Part shown: one piece after another, positions 12,724-24,263 of the stretch
How positions within the stretch are numbered: the first letter of the stretch is position 1
Layout of the letters: every line of letters begins with the position of its first letter
Source: Chelatococcus sambhunathii
GTDB taxonomy: Bacteria > Pseudomonadota > Alphaproteobacteria > Rhizobiales > Beijerinckiaceae
Direction of reading: 5' to 3'
DNA: 64,000 nt
Assembly: GCF_001418005.1 (NCBI RefSeq)
Contig: NZ_LIOL01000003.1
Span: forward strand, 124,001 to 188,000
Position numbers and translations under genes: made by a program
The notes under the pieces: model-generated
Database searches by the model: none
What the model saw: the letters and a program-made list of their open reading frames with translations, nothing else
What the model was told of the DNA's origin: nothing

Positions 12724-13270
12724 CGGATCCTCCTACGATTTTGAGGTCTGGCGCCTTGCCCCGACGGGCGCCGGCTTCCCCCTCCTCGAGTGCCCGGAGC
12801 GCCGCGCGCGCCCGGGCAAGGCGCGACATCAGCGTGCCGGAGGGAATGCCGAGGGCTTTCGCGGCTTCGGCGAAGCTCATGCCCTCGATGGCGACGAGGT
12901 GAAGCGCCGCGCGCTGCTCGTCGGGCAGGTCCATGAAGGCGCGGCGCAGCTGGGCGAGGCGCAGCTGCTGGTCCTGGACCGCCGGCTGGTGCTCGGGATG
13001 GAGATCGGCCACGAGCGCCTTGCGGCGCTCGTCCGCCCGCCGGGCCCGCTGCCCGTCCACGAAAAGGTTGTGGAGGATGGAGAACAGCCATGCGCGCAAG
13101 CCGCGGCCGGCCTCGAAGCTGCCGCGCCGCTCGTAGGCGCGCAGCAAGGTATCGTGCACGAGGTCCTCGGCAGCGACATCGTCGCGCGTCAGCGACCGCG
13201 CATAGCGGCGCAGCGCCGTGAGCTGTCCGAGGGTGTCGAAGCGGGACCGTTGCGACGTCATCAGCTCCAT
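12707..13270 (-). CDS. ECF-family RNA polymerase sigma factor
   Basis: 187-residue sigma factor. Region 2 (about 18-85, with ARSLTRDDVAAEDLVHDTLLRA and FLVDGQRAR-like core promoter binding residues) and region 4 (about 110-160, LPDEQRAALHLVAIEGMSFAEAAKALGIPSGTLMSRLARARAAL) are complete, and regions 1 and 3 are absent, as in ECF proteins. A second ATG nine bases downstream, just after GGAG, is an alternative start. It sits 61 bases after the SDR gene on the same strand. A GGGAC...CGTAT pair upstream could be an autoregulated promoter, but it is weak. Confidence 0.88.
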   Translation of the reverse strand: MELMTSQRSRFDTLGQLTALRRYARSLTRDDVAAEDLVHDTLLRAYERRGSFEAGRGLRAWLFSILHNLFVDGQRARRADERRKALVADLHPEHQPAVQDQQLRLAQLRRAFMDLPDEQRAALHLVAIEGMSFAEAAKALGIPSGTLMSRLARARAALRALEEGEAGARRGKAPDLKIVGGSDGPSH

Positions 13271-13331
13271 ATACGGAGCCGCCGACCGAATTCGTCCCTT
13301 GGACGTCGAAATTTTTGCGGCCCCGCGCCCC

Positions 13332-14072
13332 CTACACCACGCCGGCGTCGACGATGAAGTTCTGGCCCGTGCACATGCGTGCCTCGCCCGACAGGAGGAA
13401 GACGATCATCGCCGCGACGTCCTCGGGCAGGATCTCGCCGGGCAGCGCCTGGCGCTCGGCCGCACGGGCGAGCCGCTCGGCGGTCGCGGCGGCGCGCTGA
13501 CGCTCCGTCATCACCCAGCCGGGCGTGACGGCGTTGACGCGCACGCCGCCCGGCCCGAGTTCACGCGCCAGCGAGCGCGTGAAGCCGATGACGGCCGATT
13601 TCGCCGTCGTATAGGCGATGAGGTTGACCGCGCCCTGCATCCAGGAGGTGGAGGCGAGGTTGACGACCGCGCCGCGGCCGGCGCGCAGGCCCGGTGCCAC
13701 CGCCTGGGTGACGAACATGAAGTGGCGCAGGTTCACGGCGAGGCGGTCGTCCCAATAGTCCGGCGTCACCTCGGTGAAGGCATGGCGCTCGTCATGGCCG
13801 GCGTTGTTGACGAGGAGCGCGACGGGGCCGGTCGCCTGCTCGCCGTCCCGGATCGCGGCAACCGTCACCGCGACGTCGCGCAGGTCCGCCCGGCGGAAGA
13901 CGACGCCCGGCGCCTCGGCCACGAGCCGCTCGCCCTTGTCCGCATCGATGTCGAGCACGAGGCAGCGGGCGCCCTGGCGCGCGAGCGCCATGACGGTCGC
14001 CCGGCCGATGCCGTCCGCGCCGCCGGTGACGAGCGCGACGCGGCCGGCGAGATCAGGGTAGAGCGCGCTCAT
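13332..14072 (-). CDS. SDR-family NAD(P)-dependent dehydrogenase
   Basis: 246-residue short-chain dehydrogenase. The cofactor motif TGGADGIG is at about 16-23, NNAG at 88-91, Ser140 and the catalytic Tyr153-x-x-x-Lys157 follow, and a C-terminal IVDAGVV-type end is seen. It is the last gene of the sugar-acid operon; its ATG overlaps the stop of the IclR-SMP-30 gene by four bases. In oxidative sugar pathways an SDR of this type oxidises the free sugar to the lactone that an SMP-30 lactonase then opens, which fits the neighbour. The substrate (for example fucose, galactose, arabinose or rhamnose) is not determined. Confidence 0.87.
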   Translation of the reverse strand: MSALYPDLAGRVALVTGGADGIGRATVMALARQGARCLVLDIDADKGERLVAEAPGVVFRRADLRDVAVTVAAIRDGEQATGPVALLVNNAGHDERHAFTEVTPDYWDDRLAVNLRHFMFVTQAVAPGLRAGRGAVVNLASTSWMQGAVNLIAYTTAKSAVIGFTRSLARELGPGGVRVNAVTPGWVMTERQRAAATAERLARAAERQALPGEILPEDVAAMIVFLLSGEARMCTGQNFIVDAGVV

Positions 14073-15820
14073 ACCGCAAAAGCCGCCGTGGGCAGGCCCG
14101 GCACGGCGACCGGCAGCGCGAAGAGCCCGCCCGAGAACGGCGCCTCGGTGAGCACGCGCGAGGGCAGGCGCACGCGCGCGGAGGTGATAAAGAGTGTCTT
14201 CAGGTCGGCGCCGCCGAAGGCGACGCTCGTCGGCCGCGGCACGGGCAGGCCGACGTCCCGGTCGATCCGCCCGTCGGGCGCATAGCGGCGCACGCGCCAG
14301 CCGTCCCACAAAGCGCACCAGACGAAGCCGTCGCTGTCGACGGCAAGCCCGTCCGGCCTCCCCTCCTCGGGCGGCACCTCGGCGAAGACGCGCCGGTTCT
14401 CGACCGTGCCCGTCTCGGGATCGCAATCGAAGGCATAGATCCGGCCGGGCACGGAATCGACGAAATAGAGCGTGCGCCCGTCCGGGCTCCAGTCGAGCCC
14501 GTTGGCGGCGGTATAGCCGGAGGAGACGCGCCGCCAGGAAAGGTCCTTCTCGATGACATAGAGCGAGCCCGAGGTGCGGCTCGCGTCGAGGCGCATGCTG
14601 CCTGCCCACAGCCGCCCCCGCCGGTCGCACTTGCCGTCGTTGAAGCGGTTGTCAGGAATGTCCGCCTCGGGGTCGACGAGCGGCGTCGTCGCGCCCGTCG
14701 CGAAGTCGAGACCGACGAGGCCCGTCTGCGTGAGGGCCACGAGGCCCCCGCCACGGCGCGGCAGGAGCGCGCTGATGAGCTGCGGCAGGCGCAGTTCCTC
14801 GTTCTCGCCCGTCACCGGGTCGAAGCGGTTCGCCGAGGGAGCGAGGATGTCGACCCAGTAGAGCCGCTCGTGCCCGGCGATCCATACCGGCCCCTCGGCG
14901 AGATGGGCGCCCCACGGCAGGACGCACGCGACGGCGGGATCAGCGCCGTGGCCGGGACCGAGCTGGGAGGTGATGTTCATGGGCGCGGCGCCGACATTGC
15001 CCGAGACCTGCCGCGCCGCCGCCATGAGATCGCGGCCGAGCACGTGCAGGCGGTCGTTGGGAAGGCGCGCGCTCGGGCCGAAGACGCCCATCACCGCGAT
15101 CGCCTTGCCGGTATGGTCGAAGATGGGCGCGGCGGCGGAGGAGACGCCCTCGACATGCTCGGACACCGAGATCGCATAGCCGCGGGCGCGGATCAGCGCG
15201 AGTTCCGCCGTCAGCGCCGCCTCATCGGCAATGGTATTCGCCGTGTGCCGGGTGAGCCGGATGCGGTCGAGGAGCGCCCGCTGCTCGTGCGGCGCGGCGA
15301 AGGCGAGGAGCGCCTTGCCGCCCGCCGTGCAATGGAGCGGCGCCCGGCGGCCGACCTCGATGCGAAAGCCGAAGGCGCCGCCGCGGCTGCGCTGGTCGAT
15401 GTAGAGCACCTCGTCCGCATCGATGGTGGCGATGGCCACGGTCTCGGCGATCTCGTCGGCCAGGCGGTCGAGGACCGGAGCGGCCGCCCCGCGCAGGTCG
15501 AAGGATTCCCACACCCGGTGCGCCAGCTCGAAGAGCCGGTGGCCGAGACGATAGGTGCTGTCGCTCTCCTCGTGCCGCACGAGGCGGAAGAGGACGAGGG
15601 TGTTGAGCATGCGCGCCAGCGTGCCCTTGGGCAGGCCGGTCGCCGCCTGCAGGTCCTTGAACCGCGGCGGCGTCTCCGCTTCGCCGATGACCTCGAGCAG
15701 GTAGAGCCCCTTGGCGAGTGCGGCCGCGCCGGTGGGGACGTCCCGCTCCTCCGGCCTTACGACCGCTGCCGCGCGCTGCGCGCCGCGACCGCCTCGTCGA
15801 TCATGCGCTCGATGGTCCAT
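14069..15820 (-). CDS. IclR regulator fused to an SMP-30/gluconolactonase domain
   Basis: 583-residue two-domain protein. Residues about 33-275 are a complete IclR-type regulator: winged helix (about 50-90, LQAATGLPKGTLARML) and effector-binding domain (about 105-270). Residues about 290-583 are an SMP-30/regucalcin beta-propeller with the metal ligands Glu309 (AEGPVW), Asn394 (RFNDGKCD), Asn440 (NGLDWSPDG) and Asp490 (PDGLAVD). The frame runs through the junction with no stop and no ribosome binding site at the internal Met281, so this is a true fusion. No better start than the ATG at 15820 exists, giving a 64-base overlap with the epimerase gene. It may combine lactone hydrolysis with operon control. 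Confidence 0.85.
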   Translation of the reverse strand: MDHRAHDRRGGRGAQRAAAVVRPEERDVPTGAAALAKGLYLLEVIGEAETPPRFKDLQAATGLPKGTLARMLNTLVLFRLVRHEESDSTYRLGHRLFELAHRVWESFDLRGAAAPVLDRLADEIAETVAIATIDADEVLYIDQRSRGGAFGFRIEVGRRAPLHCTAGGKALLAFAAPHEQRALLDRIRLTRHTANTIADEAALTAELALIRARGYAISVSEHVEGVSSAAAPIFDHTGKAIAVMGVFGPSARLPNDRLHVLGRDLMAAARQVSGNVGAAPMNITSQLGPGHGADPAVACVLPWGAHLAEGPVWIAGHERLYWVDILAPSANRFDPVTGENEELRLPQLISALLPRRGGGLVALTQTGLVGLDFATGATTPLVDPEADIPDNRFNDGKCDRRGRLWAGSMRLDASRTSGSLYVIEKDLSWRRVSSGYTAANGLDWSPDGRTLYFVDSVPGRIYAFDCDPETGTVENRRVFAEVPPEEGRPDGLAVDSDGFVWCALWDGWRVRRYAPDGRIDRDVGLPVPRPTSVAFGGADLKTLFITSARVRLPSRVLTEAPFSGGLFALPVAVPGLPTAAFAV

Positions 15821-16740
15821 GTCGGCGTAAATCCCAGTCGTTCCCGGATCTTGCGGTTGGCCGTCCGATAGTGGATGCCCGGCCCCGGCAGGTTGACCTC
15901 GCGCAGAGGCAGGCCCGTGCGTTCGGCCATGAGCGGCAGGGCGCGCGCGAAGTCAACCGGCTCGCTCGCCCCGAGGTTGAAGACCTCCCTGGCCGCGGCC
16001 GGATGGCGCAAGGCGAGCAGGATCCCCTCCACCATGTCGCGCGTGTCGGTGATGTGCATGGCGAAGGGCCGGCCGTTCTCGTTGCGCGACAGGACGAGCG
16101 CCTCGCGCCCGTCGTCCACCGCCTCGAGCGCCGCGACCGCCGCCGCGTTGCCGAAGGCCTCCTGCTGGCGGATCTTGGGGTGCAGGAAGAAGCGCGGACC
16201 GGAGAAGAAGCTGTCGGGATCGAGCAGCTCGGCCGCATCCTGCGTGTGCGAGAAGCGCAGGATCACCGTCTCCATGGCGCCCGTGCGGCCGAGAAAGCGC
16301 ACGATCTCCTCGCCGAGGAGCTTGGTGAGGCCGTAGGGCGTGCGGGGCGCAAGCGGATGGTCCTCGTCGATGGGCTGATAGGCCGGCACGTTCTCGGGAT
16401 AGACCTCGCCGGACGAGGCGAAGACGAAACGCCGGCAGCCGGCGGCCGCGGCCGCCTCGGCCACCATGCGCGTGCCGGTGACGTTCGCCTCCCAGAGTCT
16501 GTCGGCATCCTCGCGCCGCCACGACATCAAGGCGCCGAGATGAAGAACGGCCTTAGCGCCCTCCGCCGCCTGCCGTGCGGCGGCCGGGTCCGAAAAGGCG
16601 CCGATGACCTCGCGGTAGCGGGGATGATCGATGCCGGCCGGGCGCAGGTCGAAGCCGACGACCGCCTCGCCTTCGTCGAGGAGGCGGCGCGCGACCCGAG
16701 ATCCGATACGGCCGGCACTGCCGGTGACGACGATGCTCAT
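15757..16740 (-). CDS. NAD(P)-dependent epimerase/dehydratase family protein
   Basis: 327-residue extended SDR enzyme. The N-terminal cofactor motif TGSAGRIG is at 6-13, and the catalytic YGLTK motif (Tyr-x-x-x-Lys) lies near 136-140. The family includes sugar-nucleotide epimerases and also uronate dehydrogenase, which oxidises galacturonate or glucuronate to the aldaro-lactone. Placement between the ABC ATPase and an SMP-30 lactonase domain in a catabolic operon favours a catabolic dehydrogenase or epimerase over a cell-envelope role, but it is longer than the usual 265-residue uronate dehydrogenases. The end overlaps the next gene. Confidence 0.82.
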   Translation of the reverse strand: MSIVVTGSAGRIGSRVARRLLDEGEAVVGFDLRPAGIDHPRYREVIGAFSDPAAARQAAEGAKAVLHLGALMSWRREDADRLWEANVTGTRMVAEAAAAAGCRRFVFASSGEVYPENVPAYQPIDEDHPLAPRTPYGLTKLLGEEIVRFLGRTGAMETVILRFSHTQDAAELLDPDSFFSGPRFFLHPKIRQQEAFGNAAAVAALEAVDDGREALVLSRNENGRPFAMHITDTRDMVEGILLALRHPAAAREVFNLGASEPVDFARALPLMAERTGLPLREVNLPGPGIHYRTANRKIRERLGFTPTWTIERMIDEAVAARSARQRS

Positions 16741-16777
16741 CGGAGGATCCTCATGGGACGATGCTCATGGCGAAACC

Positions 16778-17911
16778 TCAGCGGATGGCCCGGTGCGTGT
16801 CGGCGTCGAAGACGTGCAGGCGCGCCGGGTCGAAGGACAAGGTGATGGGCTCGCCCGTGGCCACCGCGCCGGCATCGACCAGCCGGGCGATGAGGGCGTC
16901 GCCCCGGCGCTCGTCGTCGGCGCCCTTGGCGTCCGCCGGTGCGCCGCGGTTCTCGTGCGGCAGGTCGACATAGATGTATTTCTCGCTCCCCAGGCTCTCG
17001 ACCAGCCGCGGCCTCACGGCGAAGGAGACGGGGCCGTGCGCCGGCCCGATGTGCTCGGGACGCAGGCCGAGGATGACCGGCCGGCCGGCGATGCCGGGCA
17101 CCGCCGCGAGCGGCACCGGCAGGGAGACGTCCTGCCCGAAGAGGCTGACGCGCGCGCCGCGCTCGTCGGCGGTAACGTTGCCGAGCAGGAAGTTCATGCC
17201 GGGCGAGCCGATGAAGCCGGCGACGAAGAGATTCTCGGGCCGGGCGAACATGGTGTCGGGATCGGCGATCTGCTGGATCTCCCCGTCACGCATGATGACG
17301 ATGCGGTCGGCCATCGTCATGGCCTCGATCTGGTCGTGGGTGACGTAGATGGTGGTGACGCCGAGGCGCTTGTGCAGGGCGCTGATCTCGGCGCGCATGT
17401 GCACCCTGAGCTTCGCGTCGAGGTTCGAGAGCGGCTCGTCCATGAGGAAGGCCTGCGGCTCGCGCACGATGGCGCGGCCGAGGGCGACGCGCTGGCGCTG
17501 GCCGCCGGAGAGCTCCTTCGGCCGCCGGTCGAGCAGGTGGTCGACGGCGAGGATCTTCGCCGCCTCCTTCACGCGCCGGTCGATCTCGCCCCGGTCCATG
17601 CCGCGCATCTTGAGGCCGAAGCCCATGTTGCGGGCGACGGTGAGGTGGGGATAGAGCGCGTAGTTCTGGAACACCATGGCGATGTCGCGGTCGCCGGGCG
17701 CGAGGTCCGTCACGTCCCGCTCGCCGATGAGGACGCGGCCGCCGCTCGCCTCCTCGAGGCCGGCGAGGATCTTCAGCATGGTCGACTTGCCGCAGCCCGA
17801 CGGACCGACGAAGACGACGAACTCGCCGTCGGCAATGTCGAGATTGAAGTCCCTGAGCACCGTGACGGCGCCGTAGGACTTGCGGACGTTCTCGATGCGG
17901 ATACCGGCCAT
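16778..17911 (-). CDS. CUT1-type sugar ABC transporter ATP-binding protein
   Basis: 377-residue MalK/UgpC-type ATPase that powers sugar import. Walker A GPSGCGKST at 36-44, Q-loop, signature LSGGQRQRVALGRA (about 134-147), Walker B and switch His (VTHDQ) are all present, followed by a C-terminal regulatory OB-fold (about 240-377). It works with the two permeases and the binding protein encoded just upstream in the operon. Such ATPases sometimes serve several transporters, so sharing is possible. Confidence 0.93.
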   Translation of the reverse strand: MAGIRIENVRKSYGAVTVLRDFNLDIADGEFVVFVGPSGCGKSTMLKILAGLEEASGGRVLIGERDVTDLAPGDRDIAMVFQNYALYPHLTVARNMGFGLKMRGMDRGEIDRRVKEAAKILAVDHLLDRRPKELSGGQRQRVALGRAIVREPQAFLMDEPLSNLDAKLRVHMRAEISALHKRLGVTTIYVTHDQIEAMTMADRIVIMRDGEIQQIADPDTMFARPENLFVAGFIGSPGMNFLLGNVTADERGARVSLFGQDVSLPVPLAAVPGIAGRPVILGLRPEHIGPAHGPVSFAVRPRLVESLGSEKYIYVDLPHENRGAPADAKGADDERRGDALIARLVDAGAVATGEPITLSFDPARLHVFDADTHRAIR

Positions 17912-17927
17912 AAATCGCTGCTCCGGA

Positions 17928-18755
17928 TTACTTCTCCGCGCCGGCGGTCAGGCCGCCGACGAGATAGCGTTCGAGGAAGAGGTAGATGACGAGGATGGGC
18001 AGGGCGACGAAGACCGCCGCGGCCGAGATCTCGTTCCAGTCGGTGACGTATTCGCCCTTCATGGTCGTGATGCCGAGGTTGGCCGTCCAGCTCTGCTGGG
18101 CATTGGTCAGGAAGGTGCGGGCATAGGCATAGTCCGACCAGGACAGCACGAAGCCGTAGAGGGCGGTGGCCGCGAGCCCCGGCGTCGCCACGGGCAGGAT
18201 GACGCGGAAGAGCGCGCCGAGCGGCGAGCAGCCGTCGACCATCGCCGCCTGCTCGAGCTCGCGCGGGATGGTGTCGAAATAGCCCTTCAGCATCCAGGTG
18301 GTGAAGGGCACGATCAGCGTCGCGTGGGCGAGCACCACCGACCAGAGGCTGCCGATGAGCCCGACAGAGCGGAAGATGCCGAAGAGCGGGATGACGAGCA
18401 GCGTCGCCGGCAGCATCTTCGCCGTGAGGATGAAGAGGCCGAGGGACTGGCCGCCGCGCACCCTGAAGCGCGACAGCGCGTAGCCGGCAAAGACCGATAC
18501 TGTCATCGACAGGGCGACCGAGCCGAGCGCCGCGAGCGTCGAGTTGGTCAGCCACAGGAGCATCGGCCGCTCCTCGGCGATCCGCGAGAAGACCTGCCAT
18601 TGCGGCACGTCCGGCCAGAAGCGCGGCGGCAGCGAGCGCAGGTCCGCCGGCGGCGAGATGGCCGTCACGAAGAGCCAGTAGATCGGGAACAGCAGCACGG
18701 CGCAGGTGGCGGCGACGCCGAGATAGAGCACGATGCGCGAGGACCGGAGCTTCAT
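17928..18755 (-). CDS. CUT1-type carbohydrate ABC transporter permease (MalG-like)
   Basis: 275-residue inner-membrane permease with six hydrophobic segments. The cytoplasmic coupling (EAA) loop, with ELEQAAMVDGCSPLGALFRVILP, is at about 172-194 and docks onto the ATPase. Ten bases separate it from the other permease upstream, and the ATPase gene follows after 16 bases. Smaller and more C-terminal in operon order than its partner, as is usual for MalG-type subunits. Confidence 0.92.
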   Translation of the reverse strand: MKLRSSRIVLYLGVAATCAVLLFPIYWLFVTAISPPADLRSLPPRFWPDVPQWQVFSRIAEERPMLLWLTNSTLAALGSVALSMTVSVFAGYALSRFRVRGGQSLGLFILTAKMLPATLLVIPLFGIFRSVGLIGSLWSVVLAHATLIVPFTTWMLKGYFDTIPRELEQAAMVDGCSPLGALFRVILPVATPGLAATALYGFVLSWSDYAYARTFLTNAQQSWTANLGITTMKGEYVTDWNEISAAAVFVALPILVIYLFLERYLVGGLTAGAEK

Positions 18756-18765
18756 CGCCGCCTCC

Positions 18766-19725
18766 TCAGTACATGGCTTCGGCGCGGCGGCCGACCATGA
18801 GAAGGCTCGCCAGCACGCACAGGACGAGCGTGACGATGCCCACGGCCGAGGCGTAGCCCATCTTGAAGAAGCCGAAGGCCTGCTCGTAGGTCATGATCGA
18901 CAGCGTCTGCGTCGCCTTGAGCGGCCCGCCGCCGGTCAGCACGTAGATGATGGAGAAGTCGCGGAACACCCACAGCATGACGAGCACGATGGTGACGCCG
19001 AGCACCGGCATCAGCGTCGGGATGGTGATGTTGGTGAAGCGCTGCCAGGCATTGGCCCCGTCCACCTTCGCCGCATTGTAGAAATCCTCCGGGATCGACT
19101 GCAGGCCGGCGAGCGCCATGATGGAGACGAAGGGATAGCCCTTCCAGATCATGGTGATCGCCACCACGGCGAAGGCGGCGTCGGGGTCCGAAAACCAGTT
19201 GATCGTCTGGCTCGTCAGCCCGAGCGTGATGAAGAGCCAGTTCATCAGCCCGAAGGAGGAATCGAAGATCCAGGCGAAGATGACGACGGCGATCACCTCC
19301 GGCACGGCCCACGGCAGGGCGACGAAGAGCCGGGCGATGCTGCGGCCGCGGAACCTGTTGTTGACCAGCAGCGCCGTCGCGAGCCCGAGCACGAAACAGG
19401 CGCCGGTGACGATGACGAGCAGCTTGAACGTCACCCAGCAGGCCATCCAGAACTCGGCCGAGGTGAAGAGGCGCTCGTAATTCGCCAGCGTGAAGGGCCG
19501 CCGCGGCTGGTCGAGCCGGGCGATGCCGACGTTCTGGAACGACAGGTCGAGCGAGATGAAGAGCGGATAGACGATGATGAGCGCGATCAGCAGCACGGCC
19601 GGCGCGAGCAGGAGATAGCCGAGCCAGTGCCGCCGGCTGGGACGCGCGAGATCGAGGCCGAAGCGGCGACGACGGCCCGGCGCGCGGGCGGCAAGCGGCT
19701 GCGCGGGGATGGACTGCGTGGACAT
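18766..19725 (-). CDS. CUT1-type sugar ABC transporter permease (MalF-like)
   Basis: 319-residue inner-membrane permease. A basic N-terminal tail (about 1-35) precedes a first helix, and five further helices follow. The EAA loop is visible as EDFYNAAKVDGANAWQRFTNITIP (about 219-242). It follows the substrate-binding protein gene after 79 bases that contain a strong hairpin, so it may be expressed at a lower level than the binding protein. Confidence 0.92.
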   Translation of the reverse strand: MSTQSIPAQPLAARAPGRRRRFGLDLARPSRRHWLGYLLLAPAVLLIALIIVYPLFISLDLSFQNVGIARLDQPRRPFTLANYERLFTSAEFWMACWVTFKLLVIVTGACFVLGLATALLVNNRFRGRSIARLFVALPWAVPEVIAVVIFAWIFDSSFGLMNWLFITLGLTSQTINWFSDPDAAFAVVAITMIWKGYPFVSIMALAGLQSIPEDFYNAAKVDGANAWQRFTNITIPTLMPVLGVTIVLVMLWVFRDFSIIYVLTGGGPLKATQTLSIMTYEQAFGFFKMGYASAVGIVTLVLCVLASLLMVGRRAEAMY

Positions 19726-19761
19726 GACGATAACCTTCTCACCGCGCCCCGGGGTGCGGGA

Positions 19762-19784
19762 GCCCGCCGGCGAGGCCGGCGGGC
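19762..19784 (-). other. Strong intercistronic hairpin after the CUT1 binding-protein gene
   Basis: A 10-bp perfect inverted repeat GCCCGCCGGC / GCCGGCGGGC (19762-19771, 19775-19784) with a 3-base loop lies between the binding protein and the first permease. On the transcribed strand no U-tract follows, so it is likely an mRNA-stabilising or partial-termination element rather than a full terminator. Confidence 0.55.
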
Positions 19785-19804
19785 CGGTGCTCGACCTGAG
19801 GCCG

Positions 19805-21085
19805 TTACTGTTTCTGGATCGCCTCGGCCTTCGCCTGCATCGTCGCGGCGACGGCCTTCGGGTCGAGGTCCTGGATGATCATGCGCTGGGCCTCTTCCAT
19901 GACCATCTTGGCGAATTCGTTGTACTGGATCTCGAGCCCGGTCGGGATGCGGTCGACGCCTGCCTTGGCGGCCGCCTGGGCCGCCTCGACGAGCAGGTCG
20001 AAATGCGGCGTCTCGCCCTTGGCGCCCGAGACGTCGGCCCGCGGGCTCGGTGGCGTCGAGGCGGCCATGGTGGCGTATTTCGTCTGGAAGTCGTCCGAGG
20101 TCGCGAGGGCGATGAAGTCCCACACGAGCGCCTTGCGGTCGTCGGAGATCTCGCTCGCCATGCCGAGCACGTTGGACGAGCCGCCGACCGGCGGATCGAA
20201 GGGCACCATGGCGAGCTTCAGCTTATCCTTGGCCGCCCCCTTCTGCATGATGGGATAGAGCCAGGGGCCGTCGAACTTCACGGCGATCTTGCCGTCGGCG
20301 AAGAGCTGGCGCACCTCGCCCGCCGAGAGGTCGCGCGGCGTGAGGTTATCCTTCACCACCGCCTTCCAGCGGGTGAGGCCCTCGACCATCTCCGGCGTGT
20401 CGATGGTCACCTTGCCGTTGGCGTCGGTCCAGCGCCCGCCGGCATCGAGGACATAGTTCAGCATCTCGGAGAGATACTGCCCGCCGCCGCCCTTGGTCTC
20501 GTGGCCGGTGCCGAACTGGTCGAGGATGCCGTCGCCGTTGAGATCCTTCGTGGTCTTGCGGGCCGCGGCGATGAACTCATCCCAGGTCCTGGGAACGGCG
20601 AGCCCCTCCTTCTGCAAGAGCTCCTCGTTGTAGCCCATGACGTAGCCGAAATAGAGCATCATGATGCAGACGGTGTCGCCCTGCCATTCGCAGGTCTTCT
20701 GGCCGGCCCAGCCGTCGAGGTTGAGCTTCGCCTTCTCGATCCAGGGATCGAGGTTCTCCAGCCAGCCGTTGTCGGCGAATTTCTGGAACTCGAAGGAGGC
20801 GAGATGGACGATGTCCGGCGGCGAGCCGCCGGCGAACAGCGTCGTCATCGTATCCGAATAGGCGCCGCGCTCGACCTTCGTCCACTCGATCTTGACGCCC
20901 GGGTGCTTCTCCTCGAAGGCCTTGATGAGCGCACCCCACCAGTCGCCGACGCCCCGCTCGTCCTTCTGCCAGGAGACGAATTTCAGGGTCGTGTCGGCCG
21001 CGGCGGGGACGATGGTGCCGGTCGCCAGAAGGGCGCCGGCCGCCGCGGCAAGGCCCAGGGCTTTCAGTCTCTTCGTCAGATGCAT
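19805..21085 (-). CDS. CUT1-type sugar ABC transporter substrate-binding protein
   Basis: 426-residue periplasmic extracellular solute-binding protein family 1 member. A signal peptide is visible (MHLTKRLKAL then a hydrophobic core, cleavage near PAAADT about residue 31). GGGAGGAAG lies just before the ATG. Mature-domain features are WWGALIKAFEEKHPGVKIEW early and a Trp/Tyr-rich sugar-binding cleft. It delivers the sugar to the two permeases encoded downstream; ligand identity cannot be read, though the neighbouring enzymes point to a sugar, sugar acid or their oligomers. Confidence 0.92.
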   Translation of the reverse strand: MHLTKRLKALGLAAAAGALLATGTIVPAAADTTLKFVSWQKDERGVGDWWGALIKAFEEKHPGVKIEWTKVERGAYSDTMTTLFAGGSPPDIVHLASFEFQKFADNGWLENLDPWIEKAKLNLDGWAGQKTCEWQGDTVCIMMLYFGYVMGYNEELLQKEGLAVPRTWDEFIAAARKTTKDLNGDGILDQFGTGHETKGGGGQYLSEMLNYVLDAGGRWTDANGKVTIDTPEMVEGLTRWKAVVKDNLTPRDLSAGEVRQLFADGKIAVKFDGPWLYPIMQKGAAKDKLKLAMVPFDPPVGGSSNVLGMASEISDDRKALVWDFIALATSDDFQTKYATMAASTPPSPRADVSGAKGETPHFDLLVEAAQAAAKAGVDRIPTGLEIQYNEFAKMVMEEAQRMIIQDLDPKAVAATMQAKAEAIQKQ

Positions 21086-21118
21086 GGCTTCCTCCCGTGG
21101 TCGCCTTGGGTCTGTTTC

Positions 21119-22285
21119 TTATGATCGCAACAGGTCGAGTGCCTCGCTGGACGGCTCGACGCCGAGCCCCGGCCCCGTCGGCAGGGTGTAGAACCCGTCC
21201 GCGCAGTCCATGTCGCCGGTGAGCAGGCGGCGGTTGGGCTCGAAGATGGAATGCTGGAACTCGTGGCAGTCGACGGCGGCGAGCGCCGCGCTCGCGTGCA
21301 GGCTCGCCGCGAGGAACAGCCCGATGCCGATGGTCGCGTGGGGAATGACCTTGAGGTGATGCGCCTCAGCATAGCCGCCGATGCGCATGAACTCGGTCAC
21401 GCCGGTGTGGCCCATCTCCGGCTGGACGATGCCGCAGGCCCGGCGCTCGACGCGCGGCACGAGATCAAAGACCGTGCGCCACTCCTCGCCGGCCGCGATC
21501 GTCGTCGACACCTGCGCGGCGACGCGGGCGAGACCGGCAACGTCCTCCGTATGCACCGGCGCCTCGGCGAACCACAGGTCGTGCGGCTCCATGGCCCGGA
21601 TGAGGCGGATCGCCTCCTCCGCCGTATGGGCCCAGTGCATGTCGCAGGCGATGCGCGCCTCCTCGCCGAGGCGCTCGCGCAGCGTCGCCATTTCCCTCGC
21701 CAGGCCATCGTCGGCGACCGGCGCGGCGAACTTGAAGGAGGAAAATCCCCTCTTCTGCCAATGCGCGGCGAGATCCGCACGGGCGGCGCGCGTTCGCTCC
21801 GGCAGGCCGGAGACATAGGCCGGGATGCGCTCGCGCCGCTGGCCGCCGAGCAGCTTGACGAGGGGCAGGCCGGCGAGCTTGCCGGCAAGGTCCCACAGCG
21901 CGATGTCGATGGCGGCGAGCGCATCGAGATAGAAGCCGCCGGTATAGCCGCGCACGCGCATGAGGTCGTAGAGGTCGTCGTGGATGACGGCCGCGTCGAG
22001 CGGGTCGCGTCCGACGACGAAGGGACCGAGCAGGTCTTCCACCAGCGCCAGCACCGTGCCCGGCGCGACGATGCCGTAGGTCTCGCCCCAGCCGACGGCC
22101 CCGCCCGTCGTCTCGATGCGCAGGACGACGCTGCGATCGACGGTGGGATAGACCGTGCGGTTGCCCTTGCGCACGATGTAGCCGCGCGCATTCACTTCCT
22201 CCCCGGGCCGCAGCGCGCCGAGATAGGGCGTCTCCCGCGGCAGGGTGATGGTGTGGGCGGTGACGGATGCGACGCGCTCTGCCAT
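21119..22285 (-). CDS. Mandelate racemase / muconate lactonizing (enolase superfamily) enzyme
   Basis: 388-residue enolase-superfamily enzyme acting through an enolate intermediate stabilised by Mg. The metal ligands are Asp215 (ACDMHW), Glu241 (FAEAP) and Glu267 (AAGEEW), a probable base is Lys185, and the opposite base is His316 (IPHAT). The position usually occupied by the Asp of the His-Asp dyad is Glu290 (QPEMGHTG). Start at 22285 (MAERV), overlapping the upstream stop by one base. In this operon it is probably a sugar-acid dehydratase or an aldarolactone cycloisomerase producing a 2-keto-3-deoxy acid. Confidence 0.85.
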   Translation of the reverse strand: MAERVASVTAHTITLPRETPYLGALRPGEEVNARGYIVRKGNRTVYPTVDRSVVLRIETTGGAVGWGETYGIVAPGTVLALVEDLLGPFVVGRDPLDAAVIHDDLYDLMRVRGYTGGFYLDALAAIDIALWDLAGKLAGLPLVKLLGGQRRERIPAYVSGLPERTRAARADLAAHWQKRGFSSFKFAAPVADDGLAREMATLRERLGEEARIACDMHWAHTAEEAIRLIRAMEPHDLWFAEAPVHTEDVAGLARVAAQVSTTIAAGEEWRTVFDLVPRVERRACGIVQPEMGHTGVTEFMRIGGYAEAHHLKVIPHATIGIGLFLAASLHASAALAAVDCHEFQHSIFEPNRRLLTGDMDCADGFYTLPTGPGLGVEPSSEALDLLRS

Positions 22286-23214
22286 CAGCGTGCTCCCACG
22301 GCTTCGGCTGCCGCCGGCGGCATGACGGTGAGGAGATCCGCGACCTCGTCGAACCAGCCGTCGATATCGGCCGTGCTCCACGGATCGAGCTCCGGCGTCG
22401 GCGCGCGCACCTCGGCGTTGTGGAGGACGCCGCGCCGCCTCAGCACGTGTTTCGTCAGGCGCATGCGGTAGAGCGCCTGCAGGGCGAGGAGCGGCAGGCT
22501 GCGCATGTAGAGCGCGCGGGCGCGGGCGCGGTCCCCCGCCTGCCAGGCACGGTCGAGCGCCACGTGCAGGTCGGCGAGTTCCAGCGCCGGCATGGCGCCG
22601 CAGGCGCCGCGGGCATATTCGTCGAGGATGTAGCGCGCTCCGCCGCCGCCGATGACGCCGGCGAGATGCGCCGGCGCTTCGGCGAGGATCGCGGTGATGG
22701 CCGGACCGGAGGGCAGCGTCTCCTCCTTGACCCAGCGCACCGCCGGCACATCCCGCACGACCGCGAGGATCGTTCGCGGGTCGAGATCCGAGCCGCGCGG
22801 GGCCGGCGCGTTCTGCAGGACGATCTCGGGGCCCGGCACTGCCTCGGCGACGCCGCGAAAGAAGGCGGTGACCGCCTCGCGGTCCGCGCCGATGCCCCGC
22901 GGCGCCTGGATCATCACGCTGCCGACGCCGGCAGCCAGCGCATCCCGGCAATGGGCGATCGTCTCTTCGAGCGAAGCTGCGCTCGCCCCCGCGACGACCG
23001 GGACGTGCCCTGCAACGGCATCGACGACAACGGCAAGGAGACGCCGCCGCTCCTCGCCGGAGAGGCTCTCCACCTCGCTGGCGAAGCCCGGGAAGACGAC
23101 CCCGTCCACCCCGCTCCGCAGCGCGAAGGCGACGAGGCGGCGCATGGCGGCTTCGTCGATGGCGCCATCAGGCCGGAACGGCGTCGGCAGGACAGGCAGG
23201 ATACCCCTCAGCAC
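22285..23214 (-). CDS. Dihydrodipicolinate synthase family enzyme (2-keto-3-deoxy acid aldolase or dehydratase)
   Basis: 309-residue TIM-barrel class I aldolase family member. The Schiff-base lysine is Lys163 in WVKEET. The usual catalytic tyrosine of the Y-N-x-P motif is replaced by Gln134 (LQNAP aligns with LYNVP of DapA), so it is unlikely to be a true DapA. It is the first gene of the operon, with a GTG start preceded by AGGGAG. By context it probably cleaves or dehydrates a 2-keto-3-deoxy sugar acid made by the next enzyme. The Tyr replacement makes the exact reaction uncertain. Confidence 0.82.
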   Translation of the reverse strand: MLRGILPVLPTPFRPDGAIDEAAMRRLVAFALRSGVDGVVFPGFASEVESLSGEERRRLLAVVVDAVAGHVPVVAGASAASLEETIAHCRDALAAGVGSVMIQAPRGIGADREAVTAFFRGVAEAVPGPEIVLQNAPAPRGSDLDPRTILAVVRDVPAVRWVKEETLPSGPAITAILAEAPAHLAGVIGGGGARYILDEYARGACGAMPALELADLHVALDRAWQAGDRARARALYMRSLPLLALQALYRMRLTKHVLRRRGVLHNAEVRAPTPELDPWSTADIDGWFDEVADLLTVMPPAAAEAVGAR

Positions 23215-23228
23215 AGCGCTACTCCCTT

Positions 23229-23273
23229 TGATCCATATATTGGATCATTTGTTGCTTATTGTGGATCATATGT
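23229..23273. promoter_or_regulatory. Palindromic operator between the catabolic operon and dgoK
   Basis: A perfect 19-bp palindrome TGATCCA-TATAT-TGGATCA (23229-23247) is followed 21 bases later by a repeated half-site TGGATCA (23262-23268) that leads into a second, imperfect dyad GGATCATATGTCC. The segment is AT-rich and lies between divergent genes, so it probably carries both promoters and the binding sites for one shared regulator. Confidence 0.6.
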
Positions 23274-23321
23274 CCGGGTGCTAAGCAGTGTCAACCAAGA
23301 GAGACGGGAGGAGGTCCTGGA

Positions 23322-24263
23322 ATGGGCGCTGACGCCGCGAAACGTGAGCCGAAGAGTGAACCCAACGTCGTCCTCGATTGGGGACCGGCGCAATTCCGCG
23401 CCCTGCTGATCGGCCCGGACGGAGAAGAGAGTGAGCGCATCGAGACGCCGCAAGGTATCCAGTCGATGGTGGACGGCGATTTCTCCGGGCTCCTTGCGCG
23501 CACCCTCACACCGTGGCGGCAACGACGTGGCCCCTTGTCCATTGTCGCCGCCGGCATGATCGGCAGCCGCAACGGCTGGTTGGAGATGCCCTACGTGCCG
23601 ACGCCGGCGAGTCCGGCGGATCTCGCGGCCGCGGCACGGCGCCTCGAACTCGAAGGGGGCGACACCGTCACTTTCCTGCCCGGGCTCACCCATCGGGCGG
23701 CCCGGCCCTATCCGGATGTGATGCGGGGCGAGGAGACACAACTCGTCGGCTTCGGCCTCGGGCGTGACATGACCGTCGTCCTGCCGGGCACCCACGCCAA
23801 ATGGGCGCGCATCGCCGGGGGGCGCATCGAACGCTTCCAGACCTTCGTGACCGGCGAGATCTTCGCGACCCTGTCGCGCCACTCCTTCCTCGCCAAGGTC
23901 GCGGCGCGGCCCGCCGTCCCCGACCGCCAGGCTTTCGCGCGCGGCCTCGCCGCAGCGCGCGACGCGCAGCCGGACGCCGGCGGTCTCCTGACCCGCCTCT
24001 TTTCCGTCCGCACGGGGTGGCTCGCCGGAAAGATCACGCCGGGCGAGATGGTCGACTACCTCTCCGGCCTCGTCATCGGCTGGGAATTCGTCGAGGCCGA
24101 GCGCGGCGGCTGGTGCAGGGCCGGTGACACGGTCGCCGTCGTCGGCGACGACGACCTCGTCGATCTCTACCGCCGCGCCGCCGAGGCGAGCGGGCTCGCG
24201 GTCGTCATGGGTCCCGAGGACGCCGCCGTGCGCGGGGCGCTCGCCATCACCGCGCTTGTGTGA
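23322..24263 (+). CDS. dgoK: 2-dehydro-3-deoxygalactonokinase
   Basis: 313-residue kinase phosphorylating 2-keto-3-deoxy-galactonate (or a related 2-keto-3-deoxy acid) in a De Ley-Doudoroff type pathway. Family features are the early nucleotide-binding LDWGPAQFRALL (about 18-29), AAGMIGSRNGW (about 84-94), LPGTHAKW (about 157-164) and TGEIFATL (about 179-186). The start at 23322 is chosen because GGAGGAGG lies seven bases upstream, rather than an in-frame ATG 63 bases earlier that would overlap the operator. Divergent from the sugar-acid operon and convergent with the CUT2 operon, with which it is almost in contact. Confidence 0.9.
   Translation: MGADAAKREPKSEPNVVLDWGPAQFRALLIGPDGEESERIETPQGIQSMVDGDFSGLLARTLTPWRQRRGPLSIVAAGMIGSRNGWLEMPYVPTPASPADLAAAARRLELEGGDTVTFLPGLTHRAARPYPDVMRGEETQLVGFGLGRDMTVVLPGTHAKWARIAGGRIERFQTFVTGEIFATLSRHSFLAKVAARPAVPDRQAFARGLAAARDAQPDAGGLLTRLFSVRTGWLAGKITPGEMVDYLSGLVIGWEFVEAERGGWCRAGDTVAVVGDDDLVDLYRRAAEASGLAVVMGPEDAAVRGALAITALV

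Follow-up and report, generated by a model that had tools for sequence, protein, structure and literature searches.

An IclR regulator fused in frame to an SMP-30 lactonase domain in a sugar-acid operon of Chelatococcus sambhunathii, and relatives that have lost its metal site

Introduction

Why should a transcription regulator carry a whole sugar lactonase as its C-terminal half, and is that half there as an enzyme, as a sensor or as both? The question is raised by a gene in a 64,000-nucleotide stretch of the genome of Chelatococcus sambhunathii (assembly GCF_001418005.1, contig NZ_LIOL01000003.1, positions 124,001 to 188,000; hereafter the window), in which an IclR regulator continues without interruption into an SMP-30/gluconolactonase (SGL) beta-propeller. 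A first-pass annotation, made from the sequence alone, had suggested that such a protein could sense the lactone that it hydrolyses. Trigger enzymes such as PutA, BirA and NadR, which are pathway enzymes that also control transcription, are a recognised idea, and fusions of a DNA-binding head to an enzyme fold are known, mostly as sensors that are no longer enzymes. The analysis reported here points, with about an even chance of being right, to one bifunctional protein that would serve a sugar-oxidation operon as its dedicated repressor and as its lactonase, and that a ligand of its SGL domain would release from DNA.

Results

The fusion gene was found to occupy one open reading frame of the minus strand that matched the Pfam models HTH_IclR, IclR_C and SGL above their cut-offs (Table 1), as the first-pass annotation had claimed. 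The IclR half matched solved IclR regulators (PDB 8eju), and its recognition helix was KGTLARM (residues 65-71). The SGL half could be aligned over its whole length with regucalcin and with the solved lactonase-family chain 7plb, which we take to be Caulobacter XylC. Counted along the alignment, residues E309, N394, N440 and D490 of the fusion paired with E18, N101, N146 and D196 of 7plb, presumably its metal and active-site residues, which bears out the claim that all four metal-site residues are kept in the SMP-30 half. The lactonase metal site of the window fusion is intact, and catalysis is predicted.

How widespread the fusion is had been left as a question for a domain search. Full-length fusions were detected in 16 of 397 Hyphomicrobiales genomes (E <= 1e-80), with an SGL match only in a seventeenth, and they were sparse in the class (5 of 385 genomes, E <= 1e-75; ten more with SGL only) and in the phylum (3 of 398 genomes, E <= 1e-60; eight more with SGL only), the three draws overlapping in that the window's genome was present in all of them and genome G301 in two. 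In a scan of genome contigs, the relatives among the best 80 of the 393 stretches encoding one belonged to Chelatococcus, Bosea, Microvirga, Devosia, Sinorhizobium, Agrobacterium, Stappia and other genera. Chelatococcus sp. CO-6 has an annotated gene (WP_019400522.1) with the same architecture and the same 1752 nt, an annotated gene with this architecture is also present on pSymA of S. meliloti, and the plasmid NZ_CP018096.1 (534,877 bp) of Chelatococcus daeguensis holds a 99% identical fusion. Database records name the fusion proteins SMP-30/gluconolactonase/LRE family protein. Among 50,697 phage records, 30 matched the fusion, none of them across more than 80% of the query. The contig that contains the window is 535,153 bp long, near the size of NZ_CP018096.1, and the window may lie on a megaplasmid. 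In Faunimonas pinastri (locus L065, 10067-18662), two different IclR-SGL fusions were observed in facing sugar operons about 5 kb apart.

The junction was examined in an alignment of 105 fusion rows; these rows, and the 103 loci described below, hold some assemblies or near-identical strains repeatedly (e.g. L013/L054, L065/L157, L001/L046, L003/L004). Locus L095, whose stop at aligned residue 93 lies outside the junction, was omitted from the alignment and counted as intact-ligand among the 103 loci, and X was substituted for the stops that L071, L072 and L118 have in their poorly conserved leader. No junction stop codon was present in the 105 rows, and the stretch equivalent to residues 275-303 was 29-30 residues long in 97 of them. 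A stop or sequencing error in the junction had been named as what would overturn the fusion; nothing of the kind was found, the junction being open in rows from many genera. A sequencing or assembly artefact was rejected, since the fusion recurs in all these rows and in complete plasmid records. At the column of M281, the residue was Met in 44 rows, Ile in 43, Val in 9 and another residue in 9, and no Shine-Dalgarno-like sequence was found upstream of M281 (GGCGCCGCGCCCATG). The lack of a ribosome binding site at this Met, noted in the first pass, was thus confirmed, and an internal start there was rejected on the same two grounds.

With regard to the start of the fusion itself, the only ATG in frame lies within the upstream gene, giving an overlap of 64 nt (15757-15820), and has no clear Shine-Dalgarno sequence, and later ATGs with better Shine-Dalgarno sequences are present in many relatives. 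The true start may be inside the overlap or closer to the conserved block. In L095 (9990-11720, Devosia sp. A8/3-2) a stop near the HTH breaks the fusion frame and several neighbouring operon-gene matches are split, which suggests decay or poor sequence.

The origin of the fusion was investigated by trees of 39 fusion rows, each kept at <78% identity; L209, whose extracted frame held stops, was excluded from the IclR tree, and L035 was trimmed before a terminal stop. In the tree with 24 stand-alone SGLs, the fused SGL halves all lay on one side of a branch (support 78). In the tree with 28 stand-alone IclRs, the fused IclR halves needed two changes, one of which was forced by well-supported branches. 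A single origin of the fusion may be compatible with both trees.

We analyzed the four metal-site residues and the surrounding genes in 103 loci, the window excluded, with about 10 kb on each side where available (79 of the 96 intact loci had a total length of at least 17 kb). All four residues were intact in 96 loci and changed in seven, a few assemblies being included twice among the 103. The residues of the seven were GQKN in L153 (genome G205), DNKG in L154 (G183), ENKN in L158 (Sulfitobacter), ENNN in L161 (Roseomonas), ENNG in both L115 (Silicimonas) and L164 (G145), and ENNA in L165 (G625). A separate intact SGL gene was present in four of these loci (L153, L158, L161 and L115), in comparison with none of the 96 intact loci (Fisher test, p 8e-6 for loci and 4e-4 for the 39 representatives). 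The separate lactonase of Sulfitobacter starts 5 nt after the fusion, that of Silicimonas, on the same strand, is about 1.8 kb upstream and adjoins DHDPS and dehydratase genes, and that of G205 is about 6 kb from the fusion. In the window's own genome, the other SGL matches were on other contigs. The four separate lactonases were scattered on the tree, with long and weakly placed branches. On the tree of the fused rows, ligand loss required at least four changes, and L027, L031 and Sulfitobacter formed one clade (100/98). Ligand loss has therefore occurred repeatedly, and its association with a second lactonase is suggestive.

Searches for more ligand-lost fusions yielded no new ones: a second search of the order with the G205 fusion (16 of 397 genomes) returned G205 itself and otherwise only fusions already known, the family-level searches around G205 and G183 returned only the starting genome (1 of 28 and 1 of 10 genomes), and the order search around G509 gave none (0 of 5). 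The ligand-lost fusions of Sulfitobacter and Roseomonas were found via plasmid searches. The ligand-lost fusions of L158 and L153 adjoin sulfatase genes, and oligopeptide-type ABC transporter genes also stand beside the G205 fusion (L158 809-2260 and 19952-21391; L153 14166-15683); these neighbours are hints of sulfated-sugar substrates.

The extent to which ligand-lost fusions keep the rest of the domain was scored at 73 non-ligand SGL positions conserved in 100 intact rows, and at 37 IclR_C positions. The single-ligand losses L115, L021, L034 and Roseomonas retained 71, 72, 66 and 68 of the 73 SGL positions. In the deep clade of L027, L031 and Sulfitobacter, 0, 1 and 2 of the four ligands remain; these members retained 55, 46 and 47 of the SGL positions and 19, 16 and 18 of the IclR_C positions. 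The values for the intact diverged sisters L030 and L035 were 59 and 51 for SGL and 29 and 29 for IclR_C. Identity between L027 and L031 was 37% in SGL and 26% in IclR_C.

A gel shift with the segment 23,229-23,273, upstream of the operon's first gene, had been put forward as a check, and this segment does hold a likely operator, predicted from its sequence as the palindrome together with the half-site over the -10 element (Table 1). The pattern TGRTCCA-N5-TGGAYCA had one exact match in the 4.37-Mb genome, which was the window palindrome, and three sites at one mismatch. With up to two mismatches allowed it had 49 sites and a reversed control pattern had 31, which means that most of the weaker sites are due to chance. 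One copy with one mismatch (G000:C4:87782-87800, in the neighbourhood of L011) lies about 20 bp upstream of another IclR-like gene match and may reflect cross-regulation or chance.

The relation between operator and recognition helix was examined in 69 upstream regions, of which 66 had an aligned helix: KGTLAR in 28 (window included), KPTF in 30 and others in 8. The first motif scored at least 12/14 in all 28 KGTLAR regions (0.06 expected), in one of the 30 KPTF regions and in one of the eight others, while GTATCA-N5-TGATAC was present in 25 of the 30 KPTF regions (0.27 expected) and in none of the KGTLAR regions. The extra half-site of the KGTLAR regions was spaced at 21 bp in 26 and at 20 bp in 2, in agreement with the tandem IclR sites described in the main text of a motif review as mainly 19-21 nt apart (PMC8222616). 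Because both motifs were derived from these same regions and the loci are related, the group 1 consensus given in that text was also scored; at least 12/14 was reached in 22 of 28 KGTLAR regions (2.8 expected) and in 21 of 30 KPTF regions (1.6 expected). The ligand-lost fusion of Sulfitobacter has a perfect 7-5-7 palindrome, TGTTCCA-N5-TGGAACA, in its divergent promoter, which scored 14/14 to this consensus (0 of 300 shuffles as good), and so did a site of the intact fusion L074. A perfect inverted repeat was also seen ahead of the ligand-lost fusion of G183 (L154, 9314-9343), its 9-nt arms standing 12 nt apart; it may be a candidate operator of other geometry.

The setting of the fusion in a sugar-acid operon, flanked by a dehydrogenase gene and an epimerase-family gene, agreed with the first-pass description (Table 1). 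Pfam recognised no second lactonase or regulator in the ten genes scanned in the window (13332-24263). In NCBIfam, the best models of the dehydratase, SDR, epimerase-family and DHDPS-family proteins were all matched below their cut-offs, and the sugar is not named by them. Genes for DHDPS, MR_MLE, the binding protein, two permeases and the ATPase lay upstream of the fusion on the same strand in 66 of 84 loci, and the epimerase-family gene was also present in 63 of these 66. Nine of the 84 (L111, L114, L119-L125) showed a second order, the fusion and then the ATPase and SDR genes, and nine had neither order, several of them being on short contigs. The 2-keto-3-deoxygalactonokinase (DGOK) gene was often divergent among fusion loci.

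Table 1. Features of the fusion gene, its operon and its candidate control region (window coordinates).
Feature	Position	Strand	Basis and remarks
IclR-SMP-30 fusion gene	14069..15820	-	ORF list, translation, Pfam; 583 codons/aa, ATG at 15820
Winged-helix HTH_IclR, residues 34-83	15572..15721	-	Pfam 39.0 bits, cut-off 22
IclR_C effector/oligomerisation domain, residues 103-273	15002..15514	-	Pfam 150.6 bits, cut-off 24
Linker, residues 274-306	14903..15001	-	Near-constant length in relatives; includes non-conserved M281 (14978-14980)
SGL/SMP-30 beta-propeller lactonase domain, residues 307-549	14174..14902	-	Pfam 294.3 bits, above cut-off
SDR dehydrogenase, downstream of fusion	13332..14072	-	Best NCBIfam D-xylose 1-dehydrogenase, 267 bits, below cut-off 400
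NAD-dependent epimerase/dehydrogenase-family gene, candidate sugar dehydrogenase	15757..16740	-	Overlaps fusion by 64 nt
Sugar ABC importer, presumably CUT1	16778..19725	-	ATPase 16778-17911; permeases 17928-18755 and 18766-19725
Sugar solute-binding protein	19805..21085	-	Pfam
MR_MLE sugar-acid dehydratase	21119..22285	-	Best NCBIfam galactonate dehydratase, 170 bits, below cut-off 311; start adopted from CO-6 annotated length, scanned piece 21122-22270
DHDPS-family gene, operon's first gene	22285..23214	-	Putative 2-keto-3-deoxy-acid aldolase or dehydratase
Candidate operator palindrome TGATCCATATATTGGATCA	23229..23247	.	Motif conserved upstream of related loci
Candidate operator half-site TGGATCA	23262..23268	.	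21 bp from the palindrome's matching arm; overlaps -10
Promoter-like site TTGACA-18-TATGAT (11/12)	23265..23294	-	Upstream of DHDPS; only one in 13000-23500, shuffles expect 0.5
2-keto-3-deoxygalactonokinase (DGOK), divergent	23322..24263	+	Pfam, CO-6 annotation

Discussion

The architecture, the conserved operon and the candidate operator allow a scheme for the bifunctional repressor to be proposed, in which repression, the enzyme steps, the identity of the sugar and the signal from an SGL ligand to DNA binding are all predicted. The ABC transporter would bring in the sugar, a dehydrogenase would turn it into a lactone by oxidation, and hydrolysis of the lactone would fall to the SGL domain. 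The resulting sugar acid would be dehydrated by the MR_MLE enzyme, and the last steps of catabolism would be carried out by the DHDPS-family enzyme, by the divergent DGOK kinase or by both. The IclR half, bound to the palindrome and half-site (23229-23268) over the promoter, would repress the operon and with it the fusion gene itself. Binding of the pathway lactone (or aldonate) at the SGL domain, perhaps with a part played by IclR_C, would free the operator, and ongoing lactone hydrolysis would deplete the inducer and so reset the switch. The SGL domain is probably the lactonase of the pathway and probably acts beyond catalysis too, in a sensor-like way, because ligand-lost fusions keep much or nearly all of the rest of the domain and four of the seven have a separate lactonase nearby. 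We further propose, tentatively and at a little short of an even chance, that a working enzyme was captured as the sensor of a regulator and later lost catalysis in several lineages while the sensor was kept, which would form an enzyme-to-sensor series.

A bifunctional protein that is merely tethered, without cross-talk between its halves, still fits much of the evidence, and we rate it as possible though clearly short of an even chance. IclR_C would then sense the aldonate or a 2-keto-3-deoxy acid, as the IclR relatives KdgR and PcaU sense pathway compounds via this domain, and the lactonase would be carried for co-expression; the full length of IclR_C (150.6 bits) and the ligands kept in 96 of 103 loci agree with this. 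However, fusions without the metal site retain the SGL domain, which is nearly unchanged elsewhere after single-ligand losses, and in the deep ligand-lost clade SGL is less eroded than IclR_C, though not between Sulfitobacter and L031. Conservation without a metal site would give the same sequence picture if the ligand-lost SGL were a structural relic that serves oligomerisation or stability and not sensing. We consider this improbable, although no point decides against it and the separate lactonases in four of seven loci fit replaced catalysis here too. Release of the lactonase as a second polypeptide, by initiation at Met281 or by proteolysis, appears very improbable: residue 281 does offer an in-frame ATG, but no Shine-Dalgarno-like sequence precedes it and only 44 of the 105 rows have Met there. 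An artefact that joined two genes has next to no probability, given the same fusion in 105 rows, many genera and complete plasmid records, and nothing was found in its favour.

Several results weigh against the bifunctional repressor with a sensing SGL domain. IclR_C is retained in intact fusions and could alone sense a later intermediate. The separate lactonase of Roseomonas is 5 kb off on the opposite strand; in three of the seven ligand-lost loci, no stand-alone SGL lay within about 10 kb of the fusion, where only SGL-type lactonases were sought; and the independent-pairs test of ligand loss with a second lactonase, which corrects for phylogeny, has only four pairs, never in the opposite direction, and is not significant (p 0.25-1). 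The pattern of erosion in SGL and IclR_C is not clean, because IclR_C is eroded in the intact Marinovum fusion too (22/37) and because Sulfitobacter and L031 are 43% identical in SGL and 47% in IclR_C. As for the operator, the window site reaches only 11/14 of the group 1 consensus in the main text of PMC8222616, as shuffles do, and no palindrome of such geometry or consensus exceeds shuffles in the regions upstream of the ligand-lost fusions of G205 and G183.

Among known systems, the fusion shares its winged helix and IclR_C with IclR-family regulators, the closest NCBIfam models being BhcR and PcaR/PcaU/PobR, and scores far below the BhcR equivalog cut-off (155.5 of 350 bits). In the main text of PMC8222616, IclR members are described as proteins of about 250 aa with the effector domain only, and tandem sites about 21 bp apart occur as in the fusion loci; several relatives' operators agree with its group 1 consensus, which the window's operator matches only in part. 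The words fused, fusion and COG3386 are absent from that main text. With the SMP-30/gluconolactonase family (7plb, then regucalcin 4gnb/3g4e) the fusion has in common the whole propeller and the four active-site residues; these relatives are stand-alone enzymes of about 290-300 residues, whereas in the fusion a regulator carries the fold as its C-terminal half. MocR/GabR proteins, a GntR winged helix with an aminotransferase-like domain, likewise join a DNA-binding head to an enzyme fold, and in EnuR, which is of this type, the enzyme fold is where the inducer binds, and the operators and the promoter core overlap (PMC8739950). However, the IclR-SGL proteins combine other DNA-binding and enzyme families, neither a GntR head nor an aminotransferase-like domain appeared in the Pfam scan of the fusion, most members keep the catalytic residues, and their enzyme half would belong to the regulated pathway itself. 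In comparison with trigger enzymes, the fusion pairs an IclR regulator with a sugar lactonase, both functions being predicted here. No description of an IclR-SMP-30 fusion was found in the open literature by title or start of abstract, a coverage mostly outside subscription papers and preprints.

Members with an intact site and members with an erased site coexist in one family, with related operons and in part a readable operator, and the evolution of an enzyme into a ligand sensor is therefore directly testable in it. The fusions would offer lactone-responsive genetic switches, and their recognition as regulators would correct the database names that call these proteins only lactonases.

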